From: an uncultured Bacteroidales bacterium
Lineage (GTDB): Bacteria > Bacteroidota > Bacteroidia > Bacteroidales > F082
Assembly: GCA_900317055.1 (NCBI GenBank)
Contig: ONFF01000013.1
Coordinates: forward strand, 1-64,000
Reading direction: 5' to 3'
Length of the DNA stretch: 64,000 bases
In this document: positions 25,561 to 42,488 of the stretch, in pieces
How positions within the stretch are numbered: the stretch's first letter is position 1
Layout: every line of letters begins with the position of its first letter
Position numbers and translations under genes: made by a program
The notes under the pieces: generated by a model
Database searches by the model: none
What the model was told of the DNA's origin: nothing
What the model saw: the letters and a program-made list of their open reading frames with translations, nothing else

Positions 25561-27567
25561 TCATTCCTTGAGCATATTATGAAGGGCGTGGTAAAGGCTG
25601 TCGTGAGCCCCGATAATGCGGCTTATTTTTCTGCTTCGGTCACAAACTGTCGTATACGCCCGTTGCATCAAGGCGGAAATGTCGGCTTCATTCAGGCCCA
25701 GCAGGACAAGATAACAACAATCCATGTCGTTGTCGGTCAGTTTTGGGTACTGCCTGCGAATTTGCGAAACAAACCGTGGTAGATGTTTCTGTACAGCATT
25801 GCGCAAATCCAATAGTTGTTCTTTGCTGAGCGCATCGTCCTTGTAAATCAAGTAGTCCATTTTCGACTTGAACTGCTGTGTGTGAACGACTCCAACAATG
25901 TGTTTGCAGATGGGGTCATTAATGAATGCCGCATAGTCATTGGATGCATCTGATTCGTATAGTGCATTTTTTGACAAAGACTGCTCCAATTGTTTAGATA
26001 TGTCGCGCAGTTCCTCATTGCTCCGCTTCAAACGGCCCGACAGGGCGGCTTGCTGCATGCGGTGCTGTTGCTCTTTTTCTCCCAGCACTCTGTCGGATTC
26101 TTCTCGCTGTTCCTTTAGGAGTTTCTTGCTTCTCCATTTCGCCATAACTATGATAGCCAAGGCCAAAATAACAGCCATAGGAATAACAATACCCAAAACT
26201 TTTTTGACCGCCACCTCTCGTTTGGCCACAGCTTCTTTTTCTTGTTTTCGGCTCTTATAGGTCTTATATATTTCACTAAGTTGGGAAACCATAGCACTGT
26301 TTTCAGCCCCTGTTTCATTGTGAAGTGCCAAATAGTGCAAGCATTCATTCGACTTTTCCTTATTCCCAAGACTGTCATATATGATTCGCAGATAATTTGC
26401 TACTCTTATCTGCAAAAATCTGTTCCTTTTGTTTTCCAACACAGGTTCCAGATACAAAAGTGCAGAATCATACATTCCCTCCTCAAAGAAAATATTACCA
26501 ATCACCATATAACGTGTCAGCCTTTCGTCATCGTCCTCAGCTAAAGTAGCCATCTGCTTTAATTGGTCTAAGGATATCTCGGCTTGATGTGTCATTTGAT
26601 AAGACAATAAGGCTTTGGTGGAAACCATATCTCTATAATATAAATTTGTCGAATCGGGCATGTTTACCAAAGCTTGCGTATAATAGTAGTCTGCACTATC
26701 CTTGTCGCCTTTTTTGTTATACTGCTTGCCTATGCGGTACAAGGCATTGGAGACACTATATGATGAAATGGATGAGATGACGGAATAATCATAGGAATGC
26801 CTGTAGCAATCTATGGAGGGTTCTGTCATGTACTGCTCCGAGAACATATCCCCAAGGCGGTTGTAGATATAGGTCATAAACCTCGCCTTTTTCCCCACTA
26901 GGTCTTTCTCATCGAAACGGCTTTCCATCACCTCCAAGGCCTTCAGGTATTCTGCACAGGCGGGCACTATGCTGTCGCGTTCGTAGTAGCCTACGCCGTG
27001 GATGTAGTGGGCGCGGGCGGTGAGGAATACGTTGTTGTCGTTTCGTGTCAGGGATAGCGGGTCCGTGCCCGCTATGAGGCGTTTGGGTGAAGGTGTGTCG
27101 TTCAGGGTGAAAGTTAGGCTGTCGAAATACGCCACTGCCTGCAACAAGGCGGGGCGGTTGGTTTGGGCGTAATCGTTTTTGTACAGCAATTCGGCCAACA
27201 GGAGGTTGGCGTAATGGCGGTTGAATGTCGTGGTTGTAGAGACGCATTGCATGCGTCTTTTTTGAAAATCGGTTGCATCATCGGGAGACGCAATCATTGC
27301 ATCTCTACAGCAGGTGTCGAAATAGGGTATCAGGCACGCCAAGGCGCTGTCGGGCTGGTGCCACATCAGGCTGTCGATGGCGGACAATTCGGGGGACGGC
27401 CCTTCGACCCTTCGATGGGCCTCAGGGACCGCAGGCTCAGGGACCTGCTCTATTCGTGACATGGCGCGCCGCGTCTCTACAGGGTCGGTATCATGCCTTT
27501 GGCAGGCACACAACAATGCAAACGGCAGCAGAAACAGTAGCACAATATGTCTGACATTCCGGCACAT
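25561..27567 (-). CDS. Membrane TPR lipoprotein with C-terminal HTH-like domain (putative sensor-regulator)
   Basis: A 668-residue protein: lipobox LLPFALLCAC (Cys20/22), TPR-like helical repeats (about 110-420), one transmembrane helix (VLGIVIPMAVILALAIIVMA), a coiled coil (KKLLKEQREESDRVLGEKEQ onward) and a C terminus LTDNDMDCCYLVLLGLNEAD...RAYTTVCDRSRKISRIIG that resembles the LuxR-like HTH of Bacteroidales TPR regulators. A lipobox and an inner-membrane helix together are unusual; the N terminus may simply be a signal anchor. Residues 31-40, 42-57 and about 87-110 are encoded by interspersed repeats, so the first 110 residues are largely repeat-derived. Confidence 0.72.
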   Translation of the reverse strand: MCRNVRHIVLLFLLPFALLCACQRHDTDPVETRRAMSRIEQVPEPAVPEAHRRVEGPSPELSAIDSLMWHQPDSALACLIPYFDTCCRDAMIASPDDATDFQKRRMQCVSTTTTFNRHYANLLLAELLYKNDYAQTNRPALLQAVAYFDSLTFTLNDTPSPKRLIAGTDPLSLTRNDNNVFLTARAHYIHGVGYYERDSIVPACAEYLKALEVMESRFDEKDLVGKKARFMTYIYNRLGDMFSEQYMTEPSIDCYRHSYDYSVISSISSYSVSNALYRIGKQYNKKGDKDSADYYYTQALVNMPDSTNLYYRDMVSTKALLSYQMTHQAEISLDQLKQMATLAEDDDERLTRYMVIGNIFFEEGMYDSALLYLEPVLENKRNRFLQIRVANYLRIIYDSLGNKEKSNECLHYLALHNETGAENSAMVSQLSEIYKTYKSRKQEKEAVAKREVAVKKVLGIVIPMAVILALAIIVMAKWRSKKLLKEQREESDRVLGEKEQQHRMQQAALSGRLKRSNEELRDISKQLEQSLSKNALYESDASNDYAAFINDPICKHIVGVVHTQQFKSKMDYLIYKDDALSKEQLLDLRNAVQKHLPRFVSQIRRQYPKLTDNDMDCCYLVLLGLNEADISALMQRAYTTVCDRSRKISRIIGAHDSLYHALHNMLKE
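27236..27308. repeat. Imperfect palindrome, family B, inside the TPR gene
   Basis: GTAGAGACGCATTGCATGCG at the left faces AGACGCAATCATTGCATCTC at the right; a 73-bp element whose arms pair with mismatches. The TPR frame reads through it (RDAMIASPDDATDF and RRMQCVSTTTT). Confidence 0.75.
27398..27445 (-). repeat. Family A repeat, 48-nt nested form, copy 1, inside the TPR gene
   Basis: Read on the minus strand it starts GGTCCCTGAGCCTGC, repeats GGTCCCTGAGG and ends TCGAAGGGTCGAAGGGCC. It is translated as VPEPAVPEAHRRVEGP. Confidence 0.88.
27463..27482 (-). repeat. Family B half-element inside the TPR gene
   Basis: GTAGAGACGCGGCGCGCC on the minus strand matches the left arm of the other GTAGAGACGC elements. 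Confidence 0.5.
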
Positions 27568-27591
27568 GCATCTCCCTATTTAAAAACGCCA

Positions 27592-29010
27592 TCATTCCTC
27601 TGCCTTCTTCTTCCTCTTGAAAATCTTCGTCCTCAGCATGAAGATGGTCAAAGCGGCCCAGAAGACGACCAAAATGCCCAAAGTGATAAAGGTAGCCTTG
27701 GGGCTCTGCGGGGCATAGCCCACCAAGAGCAGCACAGGGAAGCCCAGCACGATGGCCGAAAGGGTCTGCAACACCAGGTTGTTGGCGGCAGGCGTCTCAA
27801 ACTTCGGGTCGATTTCGCGCAACAGGATCATACCATTACTGGCCGTACCCGTCAGCATACCGAACATCGAGAAGAAGCCCTCGTATTTGTAATTCGGATA
27901 AAGGTGTTTCGAAATGATCAGCACATAAATGAAAGTGACTGCGGCACCCAAGGTGCAGATGATGATGAAAGGCAGCACGAACTTGCCGAAGTTATCGAAA
28001 CTGATGGCCGCCGTGCCTGCCACAATCATGACATCGAAGCAAAAGCCGCTGATGCGGTTGAGCATATAGTTGTTGATGTACTCGCGGCTCATCAGCTTGG
28101 CCTTCTTGAAACGGCCCAAGAGCCACTTGAAGAAGATGCCGAACAGCGTGCCAGTCAGGAAGTTGAAGCCCCAAAGCATGGGTTTCAAGGTGTTGGTGCC
28201 AAAATCGCCCAATTCCATCCCTTGTATCCAACGGGTGAACAGGAAAACGAGGAAATAGACAAACAGCACCATGCAGATCTGCACCGAGAGCTTGTCGATA
28301 GACTCGGCATCGGGGATCTCGCCCTTGCCTTCGTAGTCCTCCAGCTTGTTCACTTGAGCCTCAGCGAGTTTCTTTCTCGAAAGCACGCCCTTGCGACGCA
28401 GGATGTTCATATAGATGACGCCCACCACACTACCCACAATGAAGCCCGTGGCAGCAATGGAGAGGCCGAAGTCGGCACCCGGGAAGTCGATGCCCTGTTT
28501 GGTGGCCCATGTGGTGAAGATCTTGCCGAAGTTCAAGGCCTGTCCCGGTCCCTGGCCGTAGCCCATGGGAAGCAACAAACCCGCTGCATAAAACAGTTTT
28601 CTGCCGAAATAGAAGAACAAAATCGAAACTATGAGGCCCACAATGCCTTGGATGACATAGGTGGAGGCCGTCAAGGCACCCGTCTCAATCACCTTCATCG
28701 GCGTGGACTTCGATTCTATCTTGTTGTTTTTCAGCGCCAAGGCCACAAAACCCAAGCCCAAGGCATGATAGGTCACAATTTCCATCACAGGCTTGTTGAT
28801 GAGTTCCTTGCACCCTGGAATCGCCTTAAAGATCAAGAGCAGCAAACCGCCGATCAAAGCCGAAGGAATCAGGCTCTTGCGCAAGAAGGGAATCTTGGTT
28901 CTCAGCACATTACCGAACAACAAGGCCGTTGCCAAAATACAGAATTGCACCAGCCAATTCCATGCTATAGGCTGGTCGAAAGTCATCACAGAAGCATCAA
29001 GTAGTGTCAT
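27592..29010 (-). CDS. Sodium/glutamate symporter (GltS family)
   Basis: A 472-residue inner-membrane protein with about 11-12 hydrophobic segments and a hydrophilic central loop (RRKGVLSRKKLAEAQ to AESIDK). The pore-loop signatures LLPMGYGQGPGQALNFG and FSMFGMLTGTASNGMILLRE mark the GltS/ESS family, which takes up glutamate with sodium. Substrate identity is a family inference. Promoter box at 29036-29043. Monocistronic. Confidence 0.85.
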   Translation of the reverse strand: MTLLDASVMTFDQPIAWNWLVQFCILATALLFGNVLRTKIPFLRKSLIPSALIGGLLLLIFKAIPGCKELINKPVMEIVTYHALGLGFVALALKNNKIESKSTPMKVIETGALTASTYVIQGIVGLIVSILFFYFGRKLFYAAGLLLPMGYGQGPGQALNFGKIFTTWATKQGIDFPGADFGLSIAATGFIVGSVVGVIYMNILRRKGVLSRKKLAEAQVNKLEDYEGKGEIPDAESIDKLSVQICMVLFVYFLVFLFTRWIQGMELGDFGTNTLKPMLWGFNFLTGTLFGIFFKWLLGRFKKAKLMSREYINNYMLNRISGFCFDVMIVAGTAAISFDNFGKFVLPFIIICTLGAAVTFIYVLIISKHLYPNYKYEGFFSMFGMLTGTASNGMILLREIDPKFETPAANNLVLQTLSAIVLGFPVLLLVGYAPQSPKATFITLGILVVFWAALTIFMLRTKIFKRKKKAEE

Positions 29011-29035
29011 ATCAAATGATTTTATAAAAAGTATT

Positions 29036-29043
29036 CAAAACTA
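29036..29043 (-). promoter_or_regulatory. -7 promoter box of the gltS-like gene
   Basis: TAGTTTTG on the minus strand, 25 bases before the ATG at 29010. Confidence 0.5.
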
Positions 29044-29060
29044 AATTACTACCAACAATT

Positions 29061-29384
29061 TCAATGTCTCAGTCTGACAGCCGTACCCGATGCAGAAACC
29101 ATCAACATTCCACTATTCTCACCAAGGACCTCGTAATCAATATCAATACCGATAACAGCATCCGCGCCCATTTGCATTGCGCGTTCCTGCAATTCATTCA
29201 ATGCCTGTGAACGAGCATTGATCAGTTCTGATTCGTATGAACTCGAACGGCCCCCAATAAAGTTTCTAATGCTGGCGCCAAAGTCTTTGATAAAATTCAC
29301 TCCAGCAATCACTTCTCCAAAGACAACGCCTTTATACTCCAAGATGGTACAGCCTTCAATGTTTGGTGTAGTTGTAAGTATCAT
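29061..29384 (-). CDS. YbjQ/DUF74 family protein
   Basis: About 107 residues from ATG 29384, giving the family N terminus ([10 protein letters not shown]). [20 protein letters not shown] and [20 protein letters not shown] are the conserved YbjQ segments; members form pentameric rings and are sometimes called heavy-metal-binding, without proven function. An in-frame ATG at 29408 lies only 9 bases from the -7 box at 29417-29424 and would be at or before the transcript start, so the shorter form is preferred. Confidence 0.85.
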
Positions 29385-29416
29385 AATACATTGATTTTGT
29401 TTATCCATTTTGCCTG

Positions 29417-29424
29417 CAAATATA
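29417..29424 (-). promoter_or_regulatory. -7 promoter box of the ybjQ-like gene
   Basis: TATATTTG on the minus strand; supports the start at 29384. Confidence 0.55.
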
Positions 29425-29454
29425 TGTATTTTTTATATGGTGAACAAAATTCCG

Positions 29455-29462
29455 TAATTTTG
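29455..29462 (+). promoter_or_regulatory. -7 promoter box very close to the chromate transporter start
   Basis: TAATTTTG ends only 4 bases before the ATG at 29467, implying a leaderless or nearly leaderless transcript. Confidence 0.5.
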
Positions 29463-29466
29463 CGGC

Positions 29467-30111
29467 ATGAAAAAAGCGTTTGAACTGTTCTTCTCTTTCT
29501 TCAAGATTGGGGCCTTCACCCTCGGCGGCGGTTATGCCATGCTGTCGATGGTGGAGAAGGCCGTCGTCGACCAGAAGAAATGGATCCCCAACGACGAGTT
29601 TTGGGACATGATTGCCGTGGTTCAGTCGCTTCCGGGCGTGTTCGCCGTCAATACGGCCTTATATGTCGGGCATCGGGTGGCCGGCACTAAAGGTGCCTTT
29701 GCCGCCATGCTGGGCGCCATCATCCCGTCCATCACCATCATTCTGCTCTTGGCTACGGTGTTCCGCGAATACCGCGACCAACCCGTGGTGGAGCGCATCT
29801 TCAAGGGCATCCGTCCCTGCGTGGTAGCCCTCATCCTCGCCCCTTCCCTGCGGATGATCAAGTCGGCCAAGGTGACCTGGAAGACTGCCATTATCCCCAT
29901 CGCCACTGTGTTTCTCATCTGGTGGTGTAAGACTTCTCCCGCCTATGTCATCCTTGCCGCCATCGCGGGAAGCCTCATTTATGCGCTAATTATCAGACGC
30001 AAGACACGAGACGCGGGGGTTAATCCCCCCGACCCCCTTTCAAGGGGGAGTGGTCCCGCGTCTCGTGTCCCGAAGTCCCGAAGTCAAAAAGAAGAGGAGG
30101 CCAAGCCATGA
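29467..30111 (+). CDS. Chromate transporter, first half-size subunit
   Basis: A 214-residue CHR-family membrane protein. FFKIGAFTLGGGYAMLSMVE and AVVQSLPGVFAVNTALYVGHRVAG are the family signatures; about five to six helices follow. Half-size CHR proteins work as pairs, and the partner starts within this gene's stop (ATGA). Chromate or sulfate-like anion transport is the family role; the true substrate is unknown. The last 37 residues (RKTRDAGVNPPDPLSRG onward) come from a nested-hairpin repeat (30003-30069) and do not belong to the family fold. Confidence 0.87.
   Translation: MKKAFELFFSFFKIGAFTLGGGYAMLSMVEKAVVDQKKWIPNDEFWDMIAVVQSLPGVFAVNTALYVGHRVAGTKGAFAAMLGAIIPSITIILLLATVFREYRDQPVVERIFKGIRPCVVALILAPSLRMIKSAKVTWKTAIIPIATVFLIWWCKTSPAYVILAAIAGSLIYALIIRRKTRDAGVNPPDPLSRGSGPASRVPKSRSQKEEEAKP
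30003..30069. repeat. Nested-hairpin repeat at the 3' end of the chromate transporter gene
   Basis: Perfect 15-bp inverted repeat GACACGAGACGCGGG (30003-30017) / CCCGCGTCTCGTGTC (30055-30069), enclosing GGGGGTTAATCCCCC and CCCCCTTTCAAGGGGG. Translated as the C-terminal tail. The arm resembles GAGACGCGGGACACGGG upstream of clpB (47367-47383). Confidence 0.88.
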
Positions 30112-30647
30112 TCTACTTGCAATTGCTTTGGGTCTTCGTGAAAATCGGTGTGCTGGGCTTCGGCGGGGGCTATGCCATGCTCTCGCTCATACAGCATGAG
30201 GTTGTGGACCATTACGCTTGGATGACTACCACCGACTTTGCCGACATGGTGGCCATCTCGCAGATGACACCAGGTCCCATCTCCATCAACTTAGCGACTT
30301 ATGTGGGCTACACCACGGCGGGATTCGGCGGCTCGTTGTTGGCTTCGTTCGCGCTCTGCCTGCCTTCCATCATCATGGTGTACTTCATCTTGAAATTGTT
30401 CATGAGCAAGAAGAACAACGCTCTGATGACCAACACCTTGAAAGGTCTGAAACCTGCCATTGCCGGACTTATCTTTGCCGCAGGTCTCTCCATGATGAAC
30501 ACCCAAAACTTTGTTGACTTTGGTCGCGGACAATACAATATCAGCGTCATCATCTGCGTTTTGGCATTTGTAGCCTCGTATTTCTTCAAGGCGAATCCGA
30601 TACTACTCATTGTGCTTTCGGGCGTGGTAGGGTTTTTCGCGTATTAA
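30108..30647 (+). CDS. Chromate transporter, second half-size subunit
   Basis: A 179-residue CHR-family protein with the same FVKIGVLGFGGGYAMLSLIQ opening and ISQMTPGPISINLATYVGYT signature, plus about six helices ending in ILLIVLSGVVGFF. Start overlaps the first subunit's stop by four bases, so the two are probably made in equal amounts as a heterodimer. A 24-nt family A repeat follows at 30652-30675. Confidence 0.87.
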   Translation: MIYLQLLWVFVKIGVLGFGGGYAMLSLIQHEVVDHYAWMTTTDFADMVAISQMTPGPISINLATYVGYTTAGFGGSLLASFALCLPSIIMVYFILKLFMSKKNNALMTNTLKGLKPAIAGLIFAAGLSMMNTQNFVDFGRGQYNISVIICVLAFVASYFFKANPILLIVLSGVVGFFAY

Positions 30648-30651
30648 CCAA

Positions 30652-30675
30652 GGTCCCTGAGCCTGTCGAAGGGCC
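30652..30675 (+). repeat. Family A repeat, 24-nt unit, intergenic
   Basis: GGTCCCTGAGCCTG then TCGAAGGGCC, the basic unit of the family; followed by AAGATTCAAGATTCAAAGATTC units to 30712. Confidence 0.85.
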
Positions 30676-30717
30676 GGTTTAAGATTCAAGATTCAAAGAT
30701 TCAAAATTCAACACGAT

Positions 30718-32427
30718 ATGAAACGGTTTATCATCAGTCTATTTGCGATATTATTAGCTTCATTTTCCTTTGGGCAACATATCCTCACCTATCAGAGCTA
30801 TGCCAAAGGCGTTGCCGAACAAGACACAACCACCATCCAGGTCGTTGAAAACGCGAAATGCCTGAAAATCAAAAATGTAGAAAAGTCCACCTCCAATCCC
30901 ATCCCAGGTTATGCCGAAAGCAGCACTTATGTGGATTATACCCAAGATTCCGTTTACACCGTTTTGGACTACGGCGACGGGAAGTTCTACAGTTCCTATT
31001 CGCTGACCGATAACGATGTGATTTTCAGCGAAGAAGGCAATGAAAAGCTGTTGGGATACAAATGCAAGAAATACAAGACCAGCATCAATTCCAACACCAT
31101 CGAGGTGTGGATGACGGAAGGTCTCGGTTTTGAGGCCACCCCCATGCCTGGTCTCGGACGACTGAAAGGCGTGATGGTGCGCTGCATGAGAAACGGTTCC
31201 TATATCACTGACTTGGATGTAGTAAAAGACTTAGAATTTGGCCTCATCGACTTTATTCCAGAATACAAAGGCGAACACAAAACCTCGCGCGAGTTGAGCC
31301 AACTGCGCAAGGACAAACTCGTCATGCGCATCCCTGTTTTCGAGGACGAGCAAATCCATTTTGCGGACTATGCGCCTTTTGACGGTGAAATACCATACGA
31401 CACCACCATCCATTTCAGTCATGGCACGCTGATTGTCAAGCGGATGAAGTTGCCGGAATTACCTGCCCATTACCAAATCTTTGCCGAAATCCGTCAGCGC
31501 AGCAACGGTGATGCCTACGACCGCAGCGCCTCCGTCTTCGTCATCCCGACCGAAAAAGCCAAGAGTTTCAAGGACGGATTGACCAAAGGCATTGAAGCAT
31601 TGCCTACTATGATCGGCAAGGATGGCAAGGAATACCAAGGCATCAAGGCAGAGCAAGACTACCTGCCGCCTATCGAGTTGGTACGGTTTTTCACCTCGTT
31701 TGGTGCAGGTCATTTCAACGACAAGGTGCAGATCGACGAACTGGAATGGGCTGATGAAAACTACTACAAGATGGAAGTCAGCGAGTTGCGCGACCGTTTG
31801 CGCGGCGATGTGCTCATCGGTGCCTTCATCGGCAACTATGACAAGGGCGGACACAAGATTTCGCTTGACCTCATTGCCTACCCTGGTGAGAACAAATGGA
31901 GCAAGAAGCCTTTGAAGCAACAATCCATTCCGCTGTTCAACACTTGCAATGTACTGGAAATGTCGGGACAGAATTATGGTCGCTTGTTTGCCACAGACAC
32001 CTTGGAAGTGGAGTTTGAACTCCCCGACAGCATCAAGAATGTGCAGCTCCGTTATATCAGCACGGGTCATGGTGGTTGGGACAACGGCGACGAGTTCAAC
32101 CCCAAGGAAAATGCTATTTTCATTGACGGGGTGAAGCTATTCACCCACACGCCTTGGCGCTGCGACTGTGCCACCTTCCGCGACCAGAACCCTGTTTCAG
32201 GCAACTTCTGGAACGGCCTCTCCTCTTCCGACTACTCGCGTTCGGGCTGGTGTCCCGGCACAGCCACCAATCCCGTCTATTTCGACCTTAATGGATTGAA
32301 GCCTGGGAAGCATACGCTACGCGTCGCCATCCCTCAAGGCAAGGATGAAGGCGAATCGTTCAGCCACTGGATGGTTTCGGGGGTGGTATTGTACGAGAAG
32401 ATAGACAAAAAAGGCAAAAAGGACTAG
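30718..32427 (+). CDS. Secreted protein with GLPGLI-like N terminus and PNGase F-like C-terminal half
   Basis: A 569-residue exported protein (signal peptide to about Q20). Residues 20-200 resemble a GLPGLI/DUF4412-like beta domain (ILTYQSYAKG, LLGYKCKKYKT, IEVWMTEGLG). The second half carries the two-domain PNGase F pattern: VRFFTSFGAGHFND, then RYISTGHGGWDNGDEFNPKE, PWRCDCATFRDQNPVSG and SRSGWCPGTATNPVYFDL. PNGase F removes N-glycans from glycoproteins by hydrolysing the glycosyl-asparagine bond; activity here is inferred and catalytic acidic residues were not aligned. The stop overlaps the aroC stop (CTAG). Confidence 0.8.
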   Translation: MKRFIISLFAILLASFSFGQHILTYQSYAKGVAEQDTTTIQVVENAKCLKIKNVEKSTSNPIPGYAESSTYVDYTQDSVYTVLDYGDGKFYSSYSLTDNDVIFSEEGNEKLLGYKCKKYKTSINSNTIEVWMTEGLGFEATPMPGLGRLKGVMVRCMRNGSYITDLDVVKDLEFGLIDFIPEYKGEHKTSRELSQLRKDKLVMRIPVFEDEQIHFADYAPFDGEIPYDTTIHFSHGTLIVKRMKLPELPAHYQIFAEIRQRSNGDAYDRSASVFVIPTEKAKSFKDGLTKGIEALPTMIGKDGKEYQGIKAEQDYLPPIELVRFFTSFGAGHFNDKVQIDELEWADENYYKMEVSELRDRLRGDVLIGAFIGNYDKGGHKISLDLIAYPGENKWSKKPLKQQSIPLFNTCNVLEMSGQNYGRLFATDTLEVEFELPDSIKNVQLRYISTGHGGWDNGDEFNPKENAIFIDGVKLFTHTPWRCDCATFRDQNPVSGNFWNGLSSSDYSRSGWCPGTATNPVYFDLNGLKPGKHTLRVAIPQGKDEGESFSHWMVSGVVLYEKIDKKGKKD

Positions 32428-33380: not shown

Positions 33381-33384
33381 GGGG

Positions 33385-33392
33385 CAAAATTA
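33385..33392 (-). promoter_or_regulatory. -7 promoter box directly before the aroC start
   Basis: TAATTTTG on the minus strand, 4 bases from the ATG at 33380. Confidence 0.55.
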
Positions 33393-33413
33393 CAAATAAT
33401 CGACAGAATTTTG

Positions 33414-33421
33414 TATTTTTG
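33414..33421 (+). promoter_or_regulatory. -7 promoter box of smpB
   Basis: TATTTTTG, 8 bases before the ATG at 33430; very short leader. Confidence 0.55.
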
Positions 33422-33429
33422 CAGCCGCA

Positions 33430-33894
33430 ATGGACAAAAAGAGCACTAATAGCAACATCAAGATAAAAAACAAGCGCGCCACATTCGAGTATTTCCTCGT
33501 GGAGACGCTGACGGCAGGCATCGTGCTGACGGGGACGGAAATCAAGTCCATCCGTGGCGGCAAGGCAAGTCTGGCGGATTCGTATTGCAGCTTCAAAGGC
33601 AATGAATTGTTTGTGATTGGCATGCACATCGCCGAATATGCGCAAGGCACCTACAACAACCACGACCCCAAACGCGACCGCAAGCTGCTGCTCAACGCCC
33701 GCGAACTGCGTAAACTGAAAAACAAAGTGCAGGAAAAGGGGTTCACCATCGTGCCCGTCGTGCTATTTATCAATGAAAACGGACTAGCAAAATTAGACAT
33801 TGCTTTAGCACGAGGCAAACATTACTACGACAAGCGCGAAACCCTGAAAACCAAGGACTCAAAGCGTGAGTTGGAAAGAATGGATAGGTATTAG
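33430..33894 (+). CDS. smpB: SsrA-binding protein SmpB
   Basis: A 154-residue protein that binds tmRNA and brings it to stalled ribosomes for trans-translation. Signatures: [58 protein letters not shown] and the basic tail [16 protein letters not shown]. Length and start are normal. The ssrA gene is not in this window. Confidence 0.96.
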
Positions 33895-34557: not shown

Positions 34558-34565
34558 CAAAAATA
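34558..34565 (-). promoter_or_regulatory. -7 promoter box of the beta-barrel gene
   Basis: TATTTTTG on the minus strand, 17 bases before the ATG at 34540. Confidence 0.55.
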
Positions 34566-34602
34566 CAATAAAATCCATTTCCGCCCGTATCCAATAAAAG
34601 TT

Positions 34603-34610
34603 TATCTTTG
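34603..34610 (+). promoter_or_regulatory. -7 promoter box of the beta-helix lipoprotein gene
   Basis: TATCTTTG, 17 bases before the ATG at 34628. Confidence 0.55.
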
Positions 34611-34627
34611 CGATTTTAAACTCTGTC

Positions 34628-36091
34628 ATGAAAACTCGGCATATCTTACTCATAATCACCCTATTCCTATTGGCAGGCTACTCATGCAAGAAGAGCAACC
34701 AGATCAATCCTGATTCCAGTTTGAAACTCTCCTTTTCGGCGGATACGGTACTTTTCGACACGGTCTTCACTTCTTTGGGCTCGGCCACTCATGATCTGAA
34801 AATCTATAATACGCATAGCGATGACCTGAAAATCAGCTCCATACGCCTTGTCGGAGGCGAAGGCTCCCCTTTCCGTTTCAACCTTGACGGCGAGAGCGCC
34901 ATTGAGATTTACGACAAAGTCATCCCTGCCGAGGACAGCCTTTTCTCCTTCCTGCGCGTCACCATCAACCCGAACGACCTCAATTCGCCTTTCGTGGTAG
35001 AAGATGAGCTGGAGTTTATCACTAACGGCAACACGCAGACCATCAAGCTGTTGGCATGGGGACAAAATGCCAATTACATCGTCGCTGACAAAGTGGTGAA
35101 CATCGGTGGTACGCCCTATCCCTACCACATCGTCGCCGACAGCCTTCAGACCACGATTTGGACTTCGGAACGGCCCTATGTCATCTACGGTTATGCCCTC
35201 ATCAACAGTTACGGCACCTTGAGAATAGAAAAAGGCACGCAAATCTATTGCCACCAAGGTGGCGGTATCCTTTCGTGGAGCGACGGCCAGCTCATCATCG
35301 ACGGTACCGCTGAGGAGCCTGTCATCGTGCAAGGCGACCGTTTGGAAGCCTATTACAACGACACCCCAGGACAATGGGAGCAGATCCTGATGATGGACGG
35401 TCGCGCCGGCGCTGACCACCGCATCAGCCACGCCATCATCCGCAACGGCACCATCGGCATTAACTGTCAATCGGTACTGAAAGCCACGGAGTGCGCCTTG
35501 CGCATCGACAACACCGTTGTTGAAAACCAAAGCGGCTACGGGCTGTTTTCCATCCTCTATGCCGTTGAGGCCAAGAACTTCGTCATCGCCAACTGTGGCT
35601 TTGCCAACCTCTGGGCCTTCGGTGGTGACTACCGTTTCGTTCACGGCACCATCGCCAACTATTGGAATGCCAACGAGCACAACAACAACGAAAACGCCGT
35701 TTTGGTGGCCAACTACGCCCTCGATGGCAACAACCAGCCTTTCTATTACCCATTCCGCATGGAAATGGACAACTGCATCATCTACGGCAAGCAAAAGGAT
35801 GAATTCAAGGGCGTATTTGGCCCCGAGGCGGACTCCATCTACACCTTCGACCACTGCCTCATCAAATCGGAGAAATACAATGGCACGATGCCAGGCTTCA
35901 GCCACTGCCTCTTCAACCTCGATCCTTTCTTTGCCGACCCGATAAAGCCAGACTGCCACATCGACAGCATCGCCTCTCCCGTCATCGGCATGGGCAACCC
36001 TCTGTTTGGCAACGAAGTACCGTACGATTTGGACGGTGTTTCAAGGATTGGCACGCCGGATATGGGGGCGTATCAGTATGTAGGGGATTAA
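34628..36091 (+). CDS. Right-handed beta-helix repeat lipoprotein
   Basis: A 487-residue lipoprotein (ITLFLLAGYSC, Cys20). Residues 35-150 look like an immunoglobulin-like module (LKLSFSADTVLFDTVFTSLG, FRFNLDGE). The rest shows parallel beta-helix coils: GTLRIEKGTQIYCHQGGGIL, GQLIIDGTAEEPVIVQGD, HAIIRNGTIGIN, LRIDNTVVENQSGYGLF, NFVIANCGFANL. The C terminus (DLDGVSRIGTPDMGAYQY) is the ending usual in Bacteroidota beta-helix proteins. Surface or periplasmic; binding or enzymatic role unknown. Its stop overlaps the M23 peptidase stop at TTAA. Confidence 0.82.
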   Translation: MKTRHILLIITLFLLAGYSCKKSNQINPDSSLKLSFSADTVLFDTVFTSLGSATHDLKIYNTHSDDLKISSIRLVGGEGSPFRFNLDGESAIEIYDKVIPAEDSLFSFLRVTINPNDLNSPFVVEDELEFITNGNTQTIKLLAWGQNANYIVADKVVNIGGTPYPYHIVADSLQTTIWTSERPYVIYGYALINSYGTLRIEKGTQIYCHQGGGILSWSDGQLIIDGTAEEPVIVQGDRLEAYYNDTPGQWEQILMMDGRAGADHRISHAIIRNGTIGINCQSVLKATECALRIDNTVVENQSGYGLFSILYAVEAKNFVIANCGFANLWAFGGDYRFVHGTIANYWNANEHNNNENAVLVANYALDGNNQPFYYPFRMEMDNCIIYGKQKDEFKGVFGPEADSIYTFDHCLIKSEKYNGTMPGFSHCLFNLDPFFADPIKPDCHIDSIASPVIGMGNPLFGNEVPYDLDGVSRIGTPDMGAYQYVGD

Positions 36092-37797
36092 TACACCACC
36101 TTCACCTTCAAAGTCTTCTTATTCCCAACTCCATCGGTCACCACAACCTTAACATTGTTGGTGCCTTTCTTCATCTTCTCATCGAATTCGTAATAGAGCA
36201 GGTTGTTCTTGGCGTCATATTGGCCCAGCACCCACACATCATCCAGATAGATGTCGTAGGTCTCAATGCCCGTCATGTCATCGGAAATCTTGAACCTCAA
36301 CGACTTGAGCGCCTTCACTGATTGTCCGTCCTTGAAATTGGAGGCCTTGACCGTTGGTGCAACGGAATCTACTTTGACAGTATATTCGCCCATGGTATGC
36401 GTCTTCACCTCCATCCAGCCATTTTTCATCTTGCCGCCGAGAGAGGAAACCTTGCCATTATTGTCGATACTGGCGATATACAGTTTAGAATTGTTGGCCC
36501 ATTTCTCTTCGGGACGAATACGCAATGTGAACTTCTTGAAAGTGGTCAGACCCTCATCGCCGAAACGGTAAACAGGTGAACAGCAGCCCGTTTCATCGCG
36601 ATGACCCGTCTGAATCCACTCGTCGCGGAAAAGCGTGCCCTCCTCCATTGAGACATTGAAATCATCAATGGTAATGTTGTTGTTGAGTGAGCCATCGGAT
36701 TTCACGAAATACTCACTGCGCCGGCGCACAGGTCGTTCCACTTCAACAGGAGCCACACCCACCAATTTGAACGAGGCGGTGGTGCTATTGCCTACATAAT
36801 CAGAGATTTTGAAGCGAACATTCACCGTATCGCCTTCACGCACTGTCACCGTACCGTTTTTCTTCTTGATCATTCGGAGGTTGTTGTTGGAATCCGTCTC
36901 AGTGCGAACATAACTCGTCTTTTTCTCCTTATAATGGCGATAGTCAAGCAGACTGTTCACATAGCGCTGCTCATTATAGGAGAAACGGTCAGCCTCAACT
37001 TGAAAAGCCAGAGCGTCGTCGAGATAAAGCTCATATAAATACGGGCCATCCTTATTCGTCGATGTGCCAACCATATCAAAGGTGCAAATTCCAAACGACA
37101 TCTCACCATTGCCATAGACATAGTCTTTTTCTTTGAGAGTATATTGCCCATTATTTCCCTCAACTACAGAGAAATACACTGGGTTGGCACCGCCTTCCAA
37201 AGTGGATTCATCACCCAAAGGATAAACCGAAATACCTCTAACAAGCGGTCTCTTGTTGTCTTCAATCTTGTAGCCGAAAAACATTGGGTTGACAGGCCTT
37301 TCGTTGGCATCACGAATCTCGAAATGCAGGTGCGGTCCGCCCGACCCGCCCGAGTTGCCCGAATACGCAATCACATCGCCCTTTTTCACGGGGAATTGGT
37401 CCTTTTCGGGATAAATCTGCGAAGTGTATTTCTTGTTCTTGTACTGGTATTGCTTCACATATTTGGCAATCTCACCCTTGAAACGCTGCAAGTGGGCATA
37501 GACTGCAGTATAGCCATCATTATGTGTGACATACAGCACATTACCATAACCGTAGGGCGACACGCCGATGCGACTGACATAGCCATCGGCCACAGCATAT
37601 ACCTTCTTGCCTTCCACGCCTTGAGTCTTGATGTCGAGACCAGCATGTGGATGGTTGGGACGAAGCTCACCGAAGGTGGCCGAAAGTTGAATCGAGAAGT
37701 CAACCGGCTTGCCGTATTGGGGATATGACTGGGCAACAGCTCCCAAGGAGACCGCTAAGGCCAACAAAACCAACAAAGAACGCATTTTATTCATCAT
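36088..37797 (-). CDS. M23-family metallopeptidase (secreted)
   Basis: A 569-residue exported protein: signal peptide (SLLVLLALAVSLGAVA), LytM/M23 domain at about 25-175 with RPNHPHAGLDIKTQG (zinc His and Asp), VTHNDGYTAVYAHL and GPHLHFEIRD (HxH), all zinc and catalytic residues present. The remaining 390 residues contain Ig-like beta modules (VRFKISDYVGNSTTASFKLV, LRFKISDDMTGIETYDIYLD). It probably cleaves peptidoglycan cross-bridges or acts as a cell-wall amidase activator. -7 box at 37824-37831. Confidence 0.9.
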   Translation of the reverse strand: MMNKMRSLLVLLALAVSLGAVAQSYPQYGKPVDFSIQLSATFGELRPNHPHAGLDIKTQGVEGKKVYAVADGYVSRIGVSPYGYGNVLYVTHNDGYTAVYAHLQRFKGEIAKYVKQYQYKNKKYTSQIYPEKDQFPVKKGDVIAYSGNSGGSGGPHLHFEIRDANERPVNPMFFGYKIEDNKRPLVRGISVYPLGDESTLEGGANPVYFSVVEGNNGQYTLKEKDYVYGNGEMSFGICTFDMVGTSTNKDGPYLYELYLDDALAFQVEADRFSYNEQRYVNSLLDYRHYKEKKTSYVRTETDSNNNLRMIKKKNGTVTVREGDTVNVRFKISDYVGNSTTASFKLVGVAPVEVERPVRRRSEYFVKSDGSLNNNITIDDFNVSMEEGTLFRDEWIQTGHRDETGCCSPVYRFGDEGLTTFKKFTLRIRPEEKWANNSKLYIASIDNNGKVSSLGGKMKNGWMEVKTHTMGEYTVKVDSVAPTVKASNFKDGQSVKALKSLRFKISDDMTGIETYDIYLDDVWVLGQYDAKNNLLYYEFDEKMKKGTNNVKVVVTDGVGNKKTLKVKVVY

Positions 37798-37823
37798 TAT
37801 ACACTCGTTTATTTTTTATTGGG

Positions 37824-37831
37824 CAAAGATA
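37824..37831 (-). promoter_or_regulatory. -7 promoter box of the M23 peptidase gene
   Basis: TATCTTTG on the minus strand, 26 bases before the ATG at 37797. Confidence 0.5.
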
Positions 37832-37843
37832 TACCTTTTTTTC

Positions 37844-37851
37844 TATTTTTG
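37844..37851 (+). promoter_or_regulatory. -7 promoter box of the LtaS-like gene
   Basis: TATTTTTG, 23 bases before the ATG at 37875; supports that start over longer in-frame readings. Confidence 0.6.
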
Positions 37852-37874
37852 CAACGGCTTTAGAAACAAAAACG

Positions 37875-39869
37875 ATGCGCCGTCAAACGAGAAAAGAGAA
37901 AATACAGGCTTGGCTTTCTTCGCCGTATATGTTGCTATCCTACAGATTGTTGGCTACCTTGATAGCGCTCAGCATCAGCCGTTGGATGCTTTACCTGTTC
38001 AACATCCAGTTTTTCCACCAACTGGATTTGGGACAGGCGTTAGCACTCTATTTCCAAGGCATGAGGTTCGACTTACCTATTGTATTTGGAATCAATATCT
38101 TAACTATCGTTTTCTATTGTTTGCCCTCGCGCATCATCTACAACGAAAAACTGCAAGGCTTCGTTGACATCGTCTATATTATCACCAATGCAGTTGCCAT
38201 CTTCCTGAATTTTTTGGACATCGTATGCTTCCATTTCTTCGGAAAGCACCTCACCATGGACTTCATCAAGGTGTTGTTCCATTCGGATGAAGTGTCATTT
38301 GGCGTGGTCAGACAAGTCTTTTTCGACTACTGGTACCTATTGGTCATCTTCATTCTCTTTGTATTGATTATCATTGTAGTAGCTCAGCACACAAAGCCTA
38401 AAAAGCCGGAAAAGGAAGAGAAACCTCATTGGCAATTGCGGCAATCCATCAGCCTGGTGGTCATGCTTCTGCTCACAGTTATCGCTGGTCGCGGGGGAAT
38501 CCAAGCCAAACCCATTTCTGTGGAAACTGCCATGGAATACACCGACCCACAAAATGCACCCATTTTGCTCAACACACCGTTTTGCCTCGTTACCACCCAT
38601 GAAACCGAACTGAAAGAACGCGATGGGCGATACGAAAGCGACTTCTCCCCCATCCATTATGACTTGAGTGCCAACCGTTTCATCGAAAGCGACAGCTTAA
38701 GCGTTGATAGCATCCAGAGCAATATTGTCGTCATCATACTGAAAAACATCGGACAGGAAATGGTGGGCTACTACAGCCGCGACCGTCGCTCATCACTCAC
38801 ACCCTTCCTTGACTCGCTTTTAACCCAAAGCCTCACCTTCAACGGCATGTCGAACAGCCGGAGAAGTTTAGAGGTGCTTCCTGCCATCTTGGCCAGCATC
38901 CCTTCGATGATGGAGTACGACTTCGTGAGGTCGCCTTACGCTGACAATGACTTCGATGCCTACTGCAAGCACCTGCAAAAACATGGCTACAACACCATCT
39001 TCATGCATGGCGGCAAGAACGGGATGCTAGGCTTCGACGAGTTTTCGCGCCGAGCGGGATTCAGCAAATATTTCGGGCGCACCGAATATGGCGACGACAG
39101 CGACTATGACGGCCAATGGGGCATCTATGACGGTCCTTTCCTTCAATATGCCGCCAAGACCCTGAACCGCGTGGACAAGCCCTTCGCCACAGCAATTTAC
39201 ACCCTATCGTCGCGTTATCCCTACAAAGTCCCCAAAGACTTCGTACTGCCCGAAGAGAGTTACTTCTGGACAGGCTTCGAGAAAACCGTATACTATGTCG
39301 ACCACTCCTTAAAGGATTTCTTCGCGACAGCCTCGCAAATGCCTTGGTTCGAAAACACCCTGTTTGTCATCACGGCCGACTATTCCAACAACGAGCATTT
39401 CCAACCCGAATACAGCAATGTTTGGGGTATGTACTCCATCCCTATCGCCTTCTATTATCCTAAGAAAATCAAGCCGTTGAAAAACGAAGAAATCGCACAG
39501 CAAATCGACCTTGGGCCTTCCATCCTTTCCGCACTTGAAGTTAACGACACGCTGTTTTCCTTCGGGCGCAACCTGTTCGACACCCTCAGCGAGCCCTCGT
39601 TTGTCAGCTACTACAACTTGACCTACCAATACTGCGACGGCACCTATCTGGTACAGTCGGATGGCGAGCATCCTTTCGGCATCTTCAAGCCTGTCAACGA
39701 TTCACTCTTGAGCGACAATCTCGTCGATAGGCTGCAGTGCCCCGATGTCTACGACAAACTTTACAAATTCCTACAGGAATACAATAGCAGAATGATTAAC
39801 AACAAGTTATATATTACCCCAACCGACACCATCATTAAAACCGACACCATCCATGAAACACAAGAGTGA
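37875..39869 (+). CDS. LTA synthase-like membrane sulfatase-fold protein, probably catalytically inactive
   Basis: A 664-residue protein: five N-terminal helices (to about 200) then an extracytoplasmic alkaline-phosphatase-fold domain. Bacteroidota relatives transfer phosphoglycerol- or phosphoethanolamine-type groups to envelope glycans. Here the key residues differ from the family pattern: VVIILKNIG (K290) where the metal-binding Glu of ILESF is expected; TLSSRYPY (R447) for SSHHPF; ITADYSNN (Y503) for TADHTN. The nucleophile region SNSRRSLEVLPAILASIPS and FMHGGKNGMLGFDEF are kept. A pseudoenzyme or a protein with altered chemistry is inferred. Its end overlaps the SUI1 gene by 17 bases. 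Confidence 0.82.
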   Translation: MRRQTRKEKIQAWLSSPYMLLSYRLLATLIALSISRWMLYLFNIQFFHQLDLGQALALYFQGMRFDLPIVFGINILTIVFYCLPSRIIYNEKLQGFVDIVYIITNAVAIFLNFLDIVCFHFFGKHLTMDFIKVLFHSDEVSFGVVRQVFFDYWYLLVIFILFVLIIIVVAQHTKPKKPEKEEKPHWQLRQSISLVVMLLLTVIAGRGGIQAKPISVETAMEYTDPQNAPILLNTPFCLVTTHETELKERDGRYESDFSPIHYDLSANRFIESDSLSVDSIQSNIVVIILKNIGQEMVGYYSRDRRSSLTPFLDSLLTQSLTFNGMSNSRRSLEVLPAILASIPSMMEYDFVRSPYADNDFDAYCKHLQKHGYNTIFMHGGKNGMLGFDEFSRRAGFSKYFGRTEYGDDSDYDGQWGIYDGPFLQYAAKTLNRVDKPFATAIYTLSSRYPYKVPKDFVLPEESYFWTGFEKTVYYVDHSLKDFFATASQMPWFENTLFVITADYSNNEHFQPEYSNVWGMYSIPIAFYYPKKIKPLKNEEIAQQIDLGPSILSALEVNDTLFSFGRNLFDTLSEPSFVSYYNLTYQYCDGTYLVQSDGEHPFGIFKPVNDSLLSDNLVDRLQCPDVYDKLYKFLQEYNSRMINNKLYITPTDTIIKTDTIHETQE

Positions 39870-40194
39870 CAAGAACGGAACCGTTTACTCCACCAATCCC
39901 GACTACGCCTTCGACTATGGTGAGGAAGAAGCCATTACCCTCGAACCTGCCAAACAGAACCTTCGCGTGATGCTCGACAAGAAACAACGCGGCGGCAAGA
40001 AAGTGACCCTCGTCACAGGTTTCCAAGGCTCCGACTACGACTTGGCCGTCTTGGGCAAGGAGCTGAAGTCGGCCTGCGGTGTGGGCGGCAGCGTGAAAGA
40101 TGGTGAAATCCTGTTGCAAGGCGACTTCCGCGAAAAAGTATTGGCCTTGTTGCTTCAGAAAGGTTACACGAAAACGAAAATCAGCGGGTTATGA
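39853..40194 (+). CDS. SUI1/eIF1-like translation initiation factor family protein (YciH type)
   Basis: A 113-residue protein with the SUI1 core: LRVMLDKKQRGGKKVTLVTG, LAVLGKELKSACGVGGSVKDG, EILLQGDFREKVLALLLQKG. Bacterial YciH-like proteins influence start-codon fidelity; the role in Bacteroidota is not established. Overlaps the upstream LtaS-like gene by 17 bases and the following mechanosensitive channel gene by four (ATGA), so all three are co-transcribed. Confidence 0.9.
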   Translation: MKHKSDKNGTVYSTNPDYAFDYGEEEAITLEPAKQNLRVMLDKKQRGGKKVTLVTGFQGSDYDLAVLGKELKSACGVGGSVKDGEILLQGDFREKVLALLLQKGYTKTKISGL

Positions 40195-41411
40195 TTGAAA
40201 AATACATCGAAATACTGAGAAACCTCATCTTAAAGATGGGCATCAGCGAAAGTTTTTCGACTGGTATCGCTGAAACGACAGCCACAATTTCGCTGGTCAT
40301 CGTCGCTTTTGTCATCTTTTTCCTGGTCAAATTCATCCTAAAGAAGACCGTCTACAAAATCATACAGCTCTCGACAAACAAATACGACGACCTGCTCATC
40401 AAGAACAAAGTCATAGGTCGGATTTGTCTGCTCATCCCTGCCCTCATTATCGGCGCATGGCTACCCAACGTGCTTCCCAGCTTCCCCGATACCGCAGCGA
40501 TACTGATGAAGTTGGTCAACGTGTTCGAGATCGTCATTTGCACCATGATTTTCAGTTCCTTGTTGTCGACCGGAGAGGATTTGTACAACACCCACGAGAT
40601 GGCGAAAATCAAGCCCATCACGGGTTTGGTGCAAATCAGCAGAATCGTGCTTTATGTCTTGACTGTCATAGTGGTCATTGCTTTTGTGATGGGCACCAAA
40701 ATCAGCAACATCCTCATCAGCCTAGGAACCATGTCGGCGGTCATCATCCTTGTTTTCCAGGACACCATCAAGGGCTTTGTGGGTAGCATACAGCTCTCTG
40801 TCAACGACATGCTTCGCATTGGCGACTGGATCGTAACGGGTCCCGCCGACGGTGTCGTGCAGGAAATCAACCTCACAACGGTAAAAGTGCAGAACTGGGA
40901 CAACACCATCACCACCGTCCCGACCTACACCATGGTTTCCAGCCCCTTCACCAACTGGCGTGGTATGTCGGAATCGGGCGGACGCCGCATTGCGCGTACC
41001 ATCAATATCGACGTGAACACCATCCGCTACTGCACGCCTGAGATGCTTGAGAAATACAAACATTATGCTTTGATAAAGGACTACATAGCCCAAAAAGAAG
41101 AGGATATACTTGAATACAACAAAGCCAACAACATTGACACGAGTGAGATTTTGAACGGCCGCCAGCAGACCAACCTCGGAATCTTCCGTGCCTACATCAA
41201 GGCTTACCTCAACAACAACCCGAAGCTGAACCACAACCTCATGATGATGGTGCGTCAGATGCAGCCCACCGAATTTGGTGTACCTTTGCAAATCTACGCC
41301 TTCAGCAGCGACAAGCAATGGGTCAACTATGAGGAAATCCAAAGCGATATCTTCGACCATATCATTTCGGCTGCGACGATGTTTGATCTTAAGATTTACC
41401 AGAAGCATTAG
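40191..41411 (+). CDS. MscS-family mechanosensitive ion channel
   Basis: A 406-residue inner-membrane channel. Four to five helices (to about 170), then pore-helix and beta domain SLGTMSAVIILVFQDTIKGFVGS, LSVNDMLRIGDWIV and TVPTYTMVSSPFTNWRGMSESG, the MscS signature, followed by an extended cytoplasmic domain with an insertion (KDYIAQKEEDILEYNKAN) of the YbdG/MscM type. It releases solutes on hypo-osmotic shock. Confidence 0.9.
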   Translation: MIEKYIEILRNLILKMGISESFSTGIAETTATISLVIVAFVIFFLVKFILKKTVYKIIQLSTNKYDDLLIKNKVIGRICLLIPALIIGAWLPNVLPSFPDTAAILMKLVNVFEIVICTMIFSSLLSTGEDLYNTHEMAKIKPITGLVQISRIVLYVLTVIVVIAFVMGTKISNILISLGTMSAVIILVFQDTIKGFVGSIQLSVNDMLRIGDWIVTGPADGVVQEINLTTVKVQNWDNTITTVPTYTMVSSPFTNWRGMSESGGRRIARTINIDVNTIRYCTPEMLEKYKHYALIKDYIAQKEEDILEYNKANNIDTSEILNGRQQTNLGIFRAYIKAYLNNNPKLNHNLMMMVRQMQPTEFGVPLQIYAFSSDKQWVNYEEIQSDIFDHIISAATMFDLKIYQKH

Positions 41412-41513
41412 TTTAGAGTTTAGAGTCAGTTGAAAGTTTAGAGTTTAGAGTTGAAAGTGCAGAGCTGTAGGGCTGCCACGATGTGACAGCCGGTCAAACC
41501 AGAGAAAAGTTTT
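41412..41513. repeat. TTTAGAG heptamer repeats and a palindromic fragment
   Basis: GTTTAGAGTTTAGAG units at 41411-41452, then GTAGGGCTGCCACGATGTGACAGCC (imperfect hairpin GGCTG/CAGCC) at 41468-41492. The same heptamer, inverted, occurs at 50139-50176. Confidence 0.7.
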
Positions 41514-42488
41514 ATGAATCCAGGAATCGTTTTTACGGAAAAGTATTTGAAATTGATGTTCAATCAGTTGCGCGATGCCACGCCTGAAGAGGTGATGGAT
41601 GAGCTGGAGCATTGCCGCCGCGAGAACCGTCGACCGGTACGTGTATCAAGGTATTTCAGTGGCTTCTTCATCGAAGAGAAGTTCACCGCATCGACGGGCT
41701 TCGAAATGCAGATTTTCAAGCACGAAGAAGCAGCAAGGCCCTTGAACGCTGAGATCCCTGAGCCTGCGGTCCCTGAGGCCCCTCGAAGGGTCGAAGGGCC
41801 GACACGCCGTGTCATTCTCTATCTCCACGGTGGCGCCTTCATCTATCCGCCTGTGTTTTTCCATTGGCGTTTCCTGCACGACCTTGCCTTACGCACGCAT
41901 TATGACGCTTTGCTCCCCGTCTATCCCAAGTCACCAGAATACGACTGTGAGTATTCAGTCAAAACATTGTTGGAATACTATAAAAACATCTCTGAATCAA
42001 AAAAATATGACGAAATTCATCTCGTTGGCGATTCGGCAGGAGCTTGTCTTTGTCTCGTGGTAGCCCAAGAAGCCCACAAATACGGCTGGCAAAAGCCCGC
42101 AACCACTATCTTGCTCTCTCCTTGCGTTGACCTCAGCCACACCAAGGAAAAAGAAATGCTGGCTTTACAGGACAGAGACACCATGCTGCAATACGACCGC
42201 ATAGTCATCTTGAACGCCATCTGGCAAGGCAAATTGCCCGTGAAACATCCGTGGGTCAGCCCCGTCTTTGGCGACTTCAGTGGTGTCGACAACCTGTATG
42301 TTTACTATGGCACAAACGAAATCCTCCAGCCCGACAACCTCTTCTTAAAAGAGACCTACGAAAAGGCGGGAAAAACCGGCCATTTCAACGAATACAAAGG
42401 CATGTTCCACACCTTCGCGATGTTTCCGGTTCCCGAAGGATTCAGGGCTTTGAAAGACATGACTTCAATCCTAAAAAGACAACCATAG
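41514..42488 (+). CDS. Alpha/beta hydrolase, hormone-sensitive lipase-like esterase
   Basis: A 324-residue esterase. Oxyanion motif LYLHGGAFIYPP (HGG at 105-107), nucleophile elbow VGDSAGACL, acid region YYGTNEILQPDN and catalytic His in YKGMFHTFAMF: a complete HSL-family (type IV) arrangement for short-chain esters. Residues 81-96 (IPEPAVPEAPRRVEGP) are encoded by a 48-nt interspersed repeat placed just before the first core strand, where it probably forms a surface loop. No signal peptide. Confidence 0.86.
   Translation: MNPGIVFTEKYLKLMFNQLRDATPEEVMDELEHCRRENRRPVRVSRYFSGFFIEEKFTASTGFEMQIFKHEEAARPLNAEIPEPAVPEAPRRVEGPTRRVILYLHGGAFIYPPVFFHWRFLHDLALRTHYDALLPVYPKSPEYDCEYSVKTLLEYYKNISESKKYDEIHLVGDSAGACLCLVVAQEAHKYGWQKPATTILLSPCVDLSHTKEKEMLALQDRDTMLQYDRIVILNAIWQGKLPVKHPWVSPVFGDFSGVDNLYVYYGTNEILQPDNLFLKETYEKAGKTGHFNEYKGMFHTFAMFPVPEGFRALKDMTSILKRQP
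41753..41800 (+). repeat. Family A repeat, 48-nt nested form, copy 2, inside the esterase gene
   Basis: Starts GATCCCTGAGCCTGC, then GGTCCCTGAGGCCCC and TCGAAGGGTCGAAGGGCC. Differs from the copy at 27398-27445 at two positions and is translated in the same frame and orientation. Confidence 0.9.

Follow-up and report, generated by a model that had tools for sequence, protein, structure and literature searches.

A REP-class palindromic repeat found in frame within genes of a Bacteroidales bacterium, probably tolerated there as a protein linker

How can the same short stretch of DNA be translated in several unrelated proteins of one bacterium without breaking the frame of any of them? This question is raised by the first 64,000 nucleotides (hereafter, the window) of contig ONFF01000013.1 from an uncultured Bacteroidales bacterium (assembly GCA_900317055.1; 3.53 Mb in 32 contigs), in which an initial annotation, made from the letters alone, had recognized an interspersed repeat of 24 or 48 nt and likened it to the Rickettsia palindromic elements (RPEs). 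The core of that proposal, i.e., an RPE-like interspersed palindrome lying in unrelated genes without loss of frame, is supported by 55 curated genic copies and by the comparison of orthologous sites. According to our analysis, the repeat is probably a dispersed palindromic element of the repetitive extragenic palindrome (REP) class, whose copies within genes survive as tolerated linkers; we favour this reading because of its abundance relative to a control, the covariation of its stem, its arrangement in inverted pairs, its genic copies in frame, the bias among their frames and the varied states of the orthologous sites.

The six copies reported in the window were all recovered (Table 1), with the start of one 48-nt copy shifted by a single base (from 52492 to 52493, hence 52493-52540), and the in-frame peptides of the TPR lipoprotein and of the esterase-like hydrolase, VPEPAVPEAHRRVEGP and IPEPAVPEAPRRVEGP, were confirmed, the former lying a few residues past the lipoprotein cysteine region. 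Three copies are genic and three are intergenic, the genic location of the copy at 57223, read from the opposite strand as GPSTSSGT, having been overlooked. Chance does not account for these copies, since a 22-nt motif (up to three mismatches) matches three times in the window and never in 100 shuffles, while, across the genome, a 17-nt core (up to two mismatches) yields 132 matches vs. 3 for the reversed control, and the nested form (up to three mismatches) yields 25 vs. 0. The sequence examined around the matches amounts to 88 stretches (363.5 kb of the 3.53 Mb, window included), and 100 places were listed for the 132 core matches, namely all 90 with at most one mismatch and 10 of the 42 with two. 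Being a short palindromic hairpin, dispersed and in high copy number, the repeat belongs to the REP class, of which it also has the habit: its copies are mainly extragenic (55 of 155 are genic) and often form inverted dimers (32 of the 35 pairs of neighbouring units less than 80 nt apart are inverted).

The unit, GGTCCCTGAGCYTGTCGAAGGGCC, is built of a variable 3-bp stem around the centre TGAGCNNGTCGAA, which is found exactly in 124 units of the sequence examined; since units were searched for by this centre, the fact that it is conserved carries no evidential weight. The stem is fully paired in 105 of these 124 units, a figure that none of 2000 shuffles reaches (maximum 61), in a test that ignores the descent of copies from one another. 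When distinct 24-mers are counted only once, 37 of 56 are fully paired, and sliding the pairing by one or two bases leaves 0–2 fully paired units. Eight fully paired stem types occur: CCC/GGG (68 units), CGT/ACG (18), TGC/GCA (5), TCC/GGA (4), CCT/AGG (4), GCC/GGC (3), CAT/ATG (2) and CGC/GCG (1). Outside the unit, the flanks have a consensus of their own, with an A at position -1 and, downstream, a G followed by mostly A/T and then a C. The 48-nt form corresponds to one unit with another at its loop, thus a hairpin within a hairpin, and in some copies the inner hairpin differs in its stem, the two arms of which match each other; a 39-nt form exists too. The initial annotation had pointed out that the lengths of 24 and 48 nt are both multiples of three, but all three forms are found between genes as well as within them, so that such lengths are intrinsic to the element and prove no coding selection; length modulo 3 was therefore rejected as evidence, even if it may help the survival of copies in genes.

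Genic copies were called with a codon-usage test over up to 40 codons on each side, using our own codon model and the length of the open reading frame (ORF), not a standard gene finder. This test assigned 62 of 162 REP-like hits to genes; seven of them were discarded on inspection by eye as chance motif matches, so that 55 copies, in 44 ORFs, were retained. The calling is conservative (the copy of the TPR lipoprotein was missed and is thus outside the 55), and, as hits outside genes were not cleaned by eye, the total of 155 still includes some chance hits. The 100 non-genic copies are intergenic-like (85) or ambiguous (15). Copies are depleted in genes: 55 of the 155 hits and 42 of the 124 exact-centre units are genic, vs. 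3116 of 4000 random window positions (78%). A Pfam match (E-values up to 1e-5) was obtained for 39 host ORFs out of 44 (35 of 40 and 4 of 4 in two rounds), among which are FtsZ, MurB, NqrF, a Mur ligase with four copies, a dihydrouridine synthase, OppC, a member of the UDP-N-acetylglucosamine (UDP-GlcNAc) 2-epimerase family, a UbiA prenyltransferase, a KDO (3-deoxy-D-manno-octulosonic acid) transferase, a ketoacyl synthase, a tricorn protease and others. Within the 34 ORFs where the insert can be placed, it lies outside the best-matched Pfam stretch in 23, inside it in 8 and at its edge in 3 (our own tally, without chance expectation). Seven copies directly precede the YPNP-like start of a type IX secretion system (T9SS) sorting tail. 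When the proteins are aligned to solved structures, inserts fall in gaps of 14 residues in NqrF, 20 in MurB and 18 in the epimerase-2 protein, and the FtsZ copies lie past the FtsZ_C domain, beyond the part aligned to the structure.

The unit can be read through in five of its six frames. With each frame labelled by the peptide that the commonest stem type encodes, the 55 genic copies fall into GPSTGSGT (30), VPEPVEGP (16, including one 23-nt hit whose printed phase is off by one and which reads VVEPVETP), ALRQAQG (6), SLSLSKG (2) and PFDRLRD (1). The first two frames thus hold 46 of the 55 copies (p = 6e-11 against an expectation of two in five), 37 of 44 when a single copy is kept per ORF (p = 2.5e-9) and 34 of the 42 automatically called exact-centre single units (p = 8e-8); the 4000 random window positions have no phase preference. 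The frame bias, which the initial annotation had not seen, carries the case, and its simplest cause is the removal of insertions encoding a harmful peptide. A genome-wide search with a tally of frames had been proposed as a check: genic copies indeed lie in frame, with a bias to two frames, but the same forms also occur between genes.

For the esterase, RluA and NqrF, the comparison of orthologous sites covered 30 loci each, with the locus of the own genome among them; for the TPR lipoprotein, it covered 15. At the esterase site, 16 loci have exactly 25 residues between G[FY]EMQ and HGGA[FY] and no insert, 12 are REP-filled and 2 are short and remnant-like. Whether the closest relatives lack exactly 16 residues at this place had been proposed as a check; they do not, and carriers differ from one another, with single copies (e.g., G110), two or three in tandem (G099, G153), nested copies (G000, G125, G113) or an inverted single copy (G168, and G164 by peptide), while the 16 empty sites all belong to more distant congeners. 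Nor do close relatives lack the segment at the TPR site, where, among the seven readable loci, G000, G125 and G099 carry it; G168 and G111 are shorter, and G143 and G166 have none. The RluA site has three clear copies, seven short versions (23 residues with anchors) and 20 of other lengths, possibly decayed copies or unrelated sequence. As for the NqrF loop, 28 of the 30 loci are readable: 10 contain the element (five single, two nested of 48 nt, one nested of 39 nt, two joined with a minisatellite), and the remainder comprises 2 empty loops and 16 with other, partly repeat-like sequence. Between genes, congener G099 has a single copy at the site equivalent to the nested copy at 47399.

The NqrF loop (from SGP[YF]GEF to GGGAGM in loci L426-L455, assigned by eye) is also of interest for what congeners hold in place of the REP, namely other in-frame sequence, including GGGACGCGGGAC-type repeats, a AACTCTCAACTC minisatellite and the palindromes GGCTGCCACA..TGTGACAGCC and CTAACCGA..TCGGTTAG. 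The GGCTGCCACA..TGTGACAGCC palindrome and the AACTCTCAACTC minisatellite recur in other congener loci, and the CTAACCGA..TCGGTTAG palindrome is found in two NqrF loci only. Minisatellite-like repeats (AGTTTAGAGTT / AACTCTAAACT) are present in the window as well, at the intergenic positions 41428-41464 and 50132-50176, and resemble a repeat that some congeners have in this loop.

The T9SS genes, the gene content and the structure of the family suggest that the lineage belongs to the Bacteroidales, and probably to Prevotella. Genomes sampled from the genus contain 0 to 149 copies each of the exact 15-nt core, and at least one copy is found in 75 of 149 genomes of the family and in 103 of 395 genomes of the phylum. 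Farther away, the core occurs in at least 118 stretches of named genomes across several phyla, in a scan made without control, for which our own arithmetic (18 fixed bases, 257 billion bases) gives a chance expectation of about 7 matches over the whole collection; the 80 matches listed include Proteobacteria, Actinobacteria, Chloroflexi, Cyanobacteria, candidate phyla, a Treponema and Bacteroidetes, many of them being metagenome-assembled genomes (MAGs). In other phyla, too, repeat-like sequence is found in frame, e.g., as LRQAQG in a Staskawiczbacteria MAG (L283), within an ORF that we take to be tsaD-like. Carriage by phages or plasmids was rejected, as no stretch of viral contigs matches the exact 24-nt unit and no plasmid matches a 76-base query around the esterase copy.

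The classical account of such a distribution would be that of the REPtron system, in which REPs are mobilized by a resident REP-associated tyrosine transposase (RAYT, a Y1 transposase). Among 58 genomes, a Y1 gene is present in 25 of the 26 congeners with at least 10 copies vs. 14 of the 32 with fewer (Fisher p = 1.5e-5), the inverted pairs resemble REP dimers, and the relaxed centre motif (up to two mismatches) is found 137 times vs. 67 for the reversed control in 85 fetched Y1 loci, an excess without explanation. Yet, once genome size is held constant, the correlation between copy number and Y1 is reduced to r = 0.21 (p = 0.12). No paired-stem copy flanks the gene in any of the 83 distinct Y1 loci examined (55 + 30, two repeats; some cut by contig ends), although a flanked Y1 gene may exist elsewhere. 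The six exact-centre copies of these loci (L090, L092, L094, L110) lie about 1.3 kb or more from the gene, and L080 has an unpaired look-alike with one mismatch about 100 nt away. One own-genome Y1 gene (L033) is flanked, at about 1930-2035, by two copies of another, perfect palindrome, GCGTGTCTTCGACACGC, forming CCCCACA..TGTGGGG hairpins, which is perhaps the REP of that gene. In the 118 cross-phylum loci bearing copies, a Y1 profile that recovers 83 of 85 Y1 loci has one weak match, 5.9 kb distant, and the search for recurrent neighbour genes yields clusters spanning 3 loci at most, with no candidate enzyme. Finally, the GTAG/GTGG foot (GT[AG]G) is seen in 1 of the 124 units. For want of association in either set of loci, we rejected RAYT as the mobilizer and regard the classical system as an unlikely explanation.

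Three other accounts concern the genic copies. The frame bias might stem from insertion into codon-phased targets and not from selection on the peptide, and there is indeed a flank consensus outside the unit; this is nonetheless somewhat unlikely, as the bias exists on both orientations, in different phases, with both favoured peptides being linker-like, while copies are fewer in genes than chance would have it and, where placeable, fall mostly outside the best Pfam stretch. The hairpin could also be kept by selection for transcription termination or mRNA stability, the genic copies being accidents: most copies are not called genic, and one copy of the window starts just past a stop codon. The shortness of the stem, the lack of folding excess and the range of copy numbers among congeners, down to none, make this improbable. 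It is barely credible, at last, that Pro/Glu or Gly/Ser linkers converged on similar DNA by coincidence. Copies do sit at linker positions, and the FtsZ linker and those preceding T9SS tails are naturally of low complexity, but convergence is refuted by the intergenic copies of the same 24-nt DNA, by its presence on either strand and in five frames, and by the compensating changes in its stem.

Several observations nevertheless weigh against a mobile hairpin tolerated in genes. Single units are predicted to fold no more stably than shuffles (z ~0), covariation is lacking at the outer pair 2-24, and most units have a mismatch at 3-23, so that the hairpin is carried by three covarying pairs. The TGA/GAA steps could pair as tandem G.A. 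The sites compared yielded neither an empty counterpart clean enough to show an exact boundary or a target duplication nor a parent element, the marks by which a miniature inverted-repeat transposable element (MITE) would be recognized, and the searches of Y1 and cross-phylum loci yielded no mobilizing enzyme. Some copies close to an N-terminus may precede the true start codon, the calls being those of our own gene caller, and the REP peptide of an NAD-epimerase faces a loop of similar length in a solved relative, not an alignment gap. Codon-phased target preference could account for part of the frame bias. A second genome of the genus (G051) has 14 of 17 copies in the two favoured frames (p = 6e-4; 25 of 30 fetched loci used, five overlapping loci skipped), but shares some genic sites with G000 (e.g., the tricorn protease and a T9SS protein), and is thus not an independent replicate.

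How does this repeat relate to elements already described? RPEs are the closest in behaviour, judging from their description: they too are dispersed palindromes, in frame in many unrelated and apparently functional genes (PMC10969869, PMC3733652), and our element likewise appears, from sequence alone, in frame in functional genes while missing from some orthologues. The first RPEs, however, are described as being about 150 bp long, each with a conserved encoded peptide (PMC10969869), whereas here a 24-nt unit is read in five frames, in a Bacteroidales-type lineage and beyond. With GTAG REPs, the repeat shares hairpins of 20-40 nt, inverted dimers, high copy number and some in-frame intragenic copies (PMC3733652; PMC6006769), but its stem is short and variable and encloses a long centre that is conserved; their foot is present in only 1 of the 124 units, and no copy flanks the transposase gene in the Y1 loci examined. 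CGTC REPs have no dedicated transposase, form head-to-head dimers, occur in some Bacteroidetes and are intragenic in R. conorii; their stems are of 8-9 bp and their loops of 4-5 nt (PMC3733652), vs. three covarying pairs, a non-covarying outer pair and a conserved centre of 11-13 nt here, where 10 of the 124 units have a CGTC/TGTC/CCTC foot. Neither the foot of either superfamily nor the CGTC type of stem therefore fits the present repeat. PARCELs (palindromic amphipathic repeat coding elements) are palindromic coding repeats across distant taxa too, but consist of 25-residue amphipathic repeats, in tandem in ORFs without assigned functions (PMC2996958).

The initial annotation had held that in-frame elements of this kind are not a recognized feature of Bacteroidales coding sequences, which was too strong. 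REPs read in frame had already been described from ORFs of other bacteria, where they were proposed to be neutral in flexible linkers or loops (Di Nocera 2013, PMC3733652). They also occur within the tnpA-REP genes of subclass 2.4, which is abundant in Cyanobacteria and Bacteroidetes (PMC6006769). Searches of the open-licence literature by sequence and by peptide string found no description of the present element. Its apparently new aspects are a frame bias that could be put in numbers, the extent to which essential-type genes of one Bacteroidales-type lineage are involved, the growth of hairpins within hairpins at fixed positions in genes, and a family of units whose stems covary.

Table 1. 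Copies of the repeat in the window and the genes that host them.
Feature	Position in window	Strand	Context
48-nt nested copy	27398..27445	-	within TPR lipoprotein gene; encodes VPEPAVPEAHRRVEGP
24-nt single copy	30652..30675	+	intergenic; starts 5 nt past the stop of 30108-30647(+)
48-nt nested copy	41753..41800	+	within alpha/beta-hydrolase gene; encodes IPEPAVPEAPRRVEGP
48-nt nested copy	47399..47446	+	intergenic; between 47325(-) and 47612(+)
48-nt nested copy	52493..52540	-	intergenic; inner hairpin with different stem TCC/GGA, arms match
24-nt single copy	57223..57246	-	within RluA-like pseudouridine synthase gene; encodes GPSTSSGT
TPR lipoprotein gene (host)	25561..27567	-	TPR_1 match, 28.0 bits vs. 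cut-off of 27.8
Alpha/beta-hydrolase gene, esterase-like (host)	41514..42488	+	Pfam Abhydrolase_3
RNA pseudouridylate synthase gene, RluA-like (host)	56452..57390	+	Pfam match

The window has other features of its own. A cobalamin riboswitch (17713-17892(-), 109.7 bits), the only Rfam match in the window at gathering thresholds, lies upstream of ORF 16353-17603(-), within which two direct copies of 300 nt, 87% alike and 462 nt apart, span 16647-17408. The 1034-residue ORF 17972-21076(+) includes four copies of a 59-nt stretch at an exact spacing of 207 nt (19412-20091), and an inverted pair of 112 nt, 82% complementary, is found at 6213-6324 and 22875-22986, 16.5 kb apart.

If the repeat is indeed a dispersed REP-class element, its history could be as follows. 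Insertion would take little account of whether a site is genic; copies causing a frameshift, a stop or a disturbed fold would be purged, and those whose peptide can act as a flexible or Pro/Glu linker, within a loop or between two domains, would be tolerated, and would then drift, expand or invert. The spread itself might go through a single-stranded hairpin, handled in trans by an HUH/Y1-type enzyme or copied by template switching at replication. More tentatively, and with somewhat less than even confidence, one may see here a third, pan-bacterial REP superfamily, defined by a covarying stem around TGAGCNNGTCGAA and devoid of a tyrosine transposase of its own, which would nest in its own loops and be a standing source of protein linkers, having supplied, in some Bacteroidales, in-frame and frame-selected linkers to dozens of genes, including core genes of cell division and wall synthesis, certain loops (such as that of NqrF) repeatedly taking up this and other repeats.

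For annotation, the finding means that octapeptides recurring in unrelated proteins can mislead alignments. For the evolution of proteins, the origin of linkers from selfish DNA becomes directly testable, since a 24-nt unit can be traced from an intergenic copy to an in-frame linker. Congeners show one and the same site empty or occupied by single, tandem, nested or inverted copies, and the frame bias, which can be measured, may be a signature of selection on the protein.

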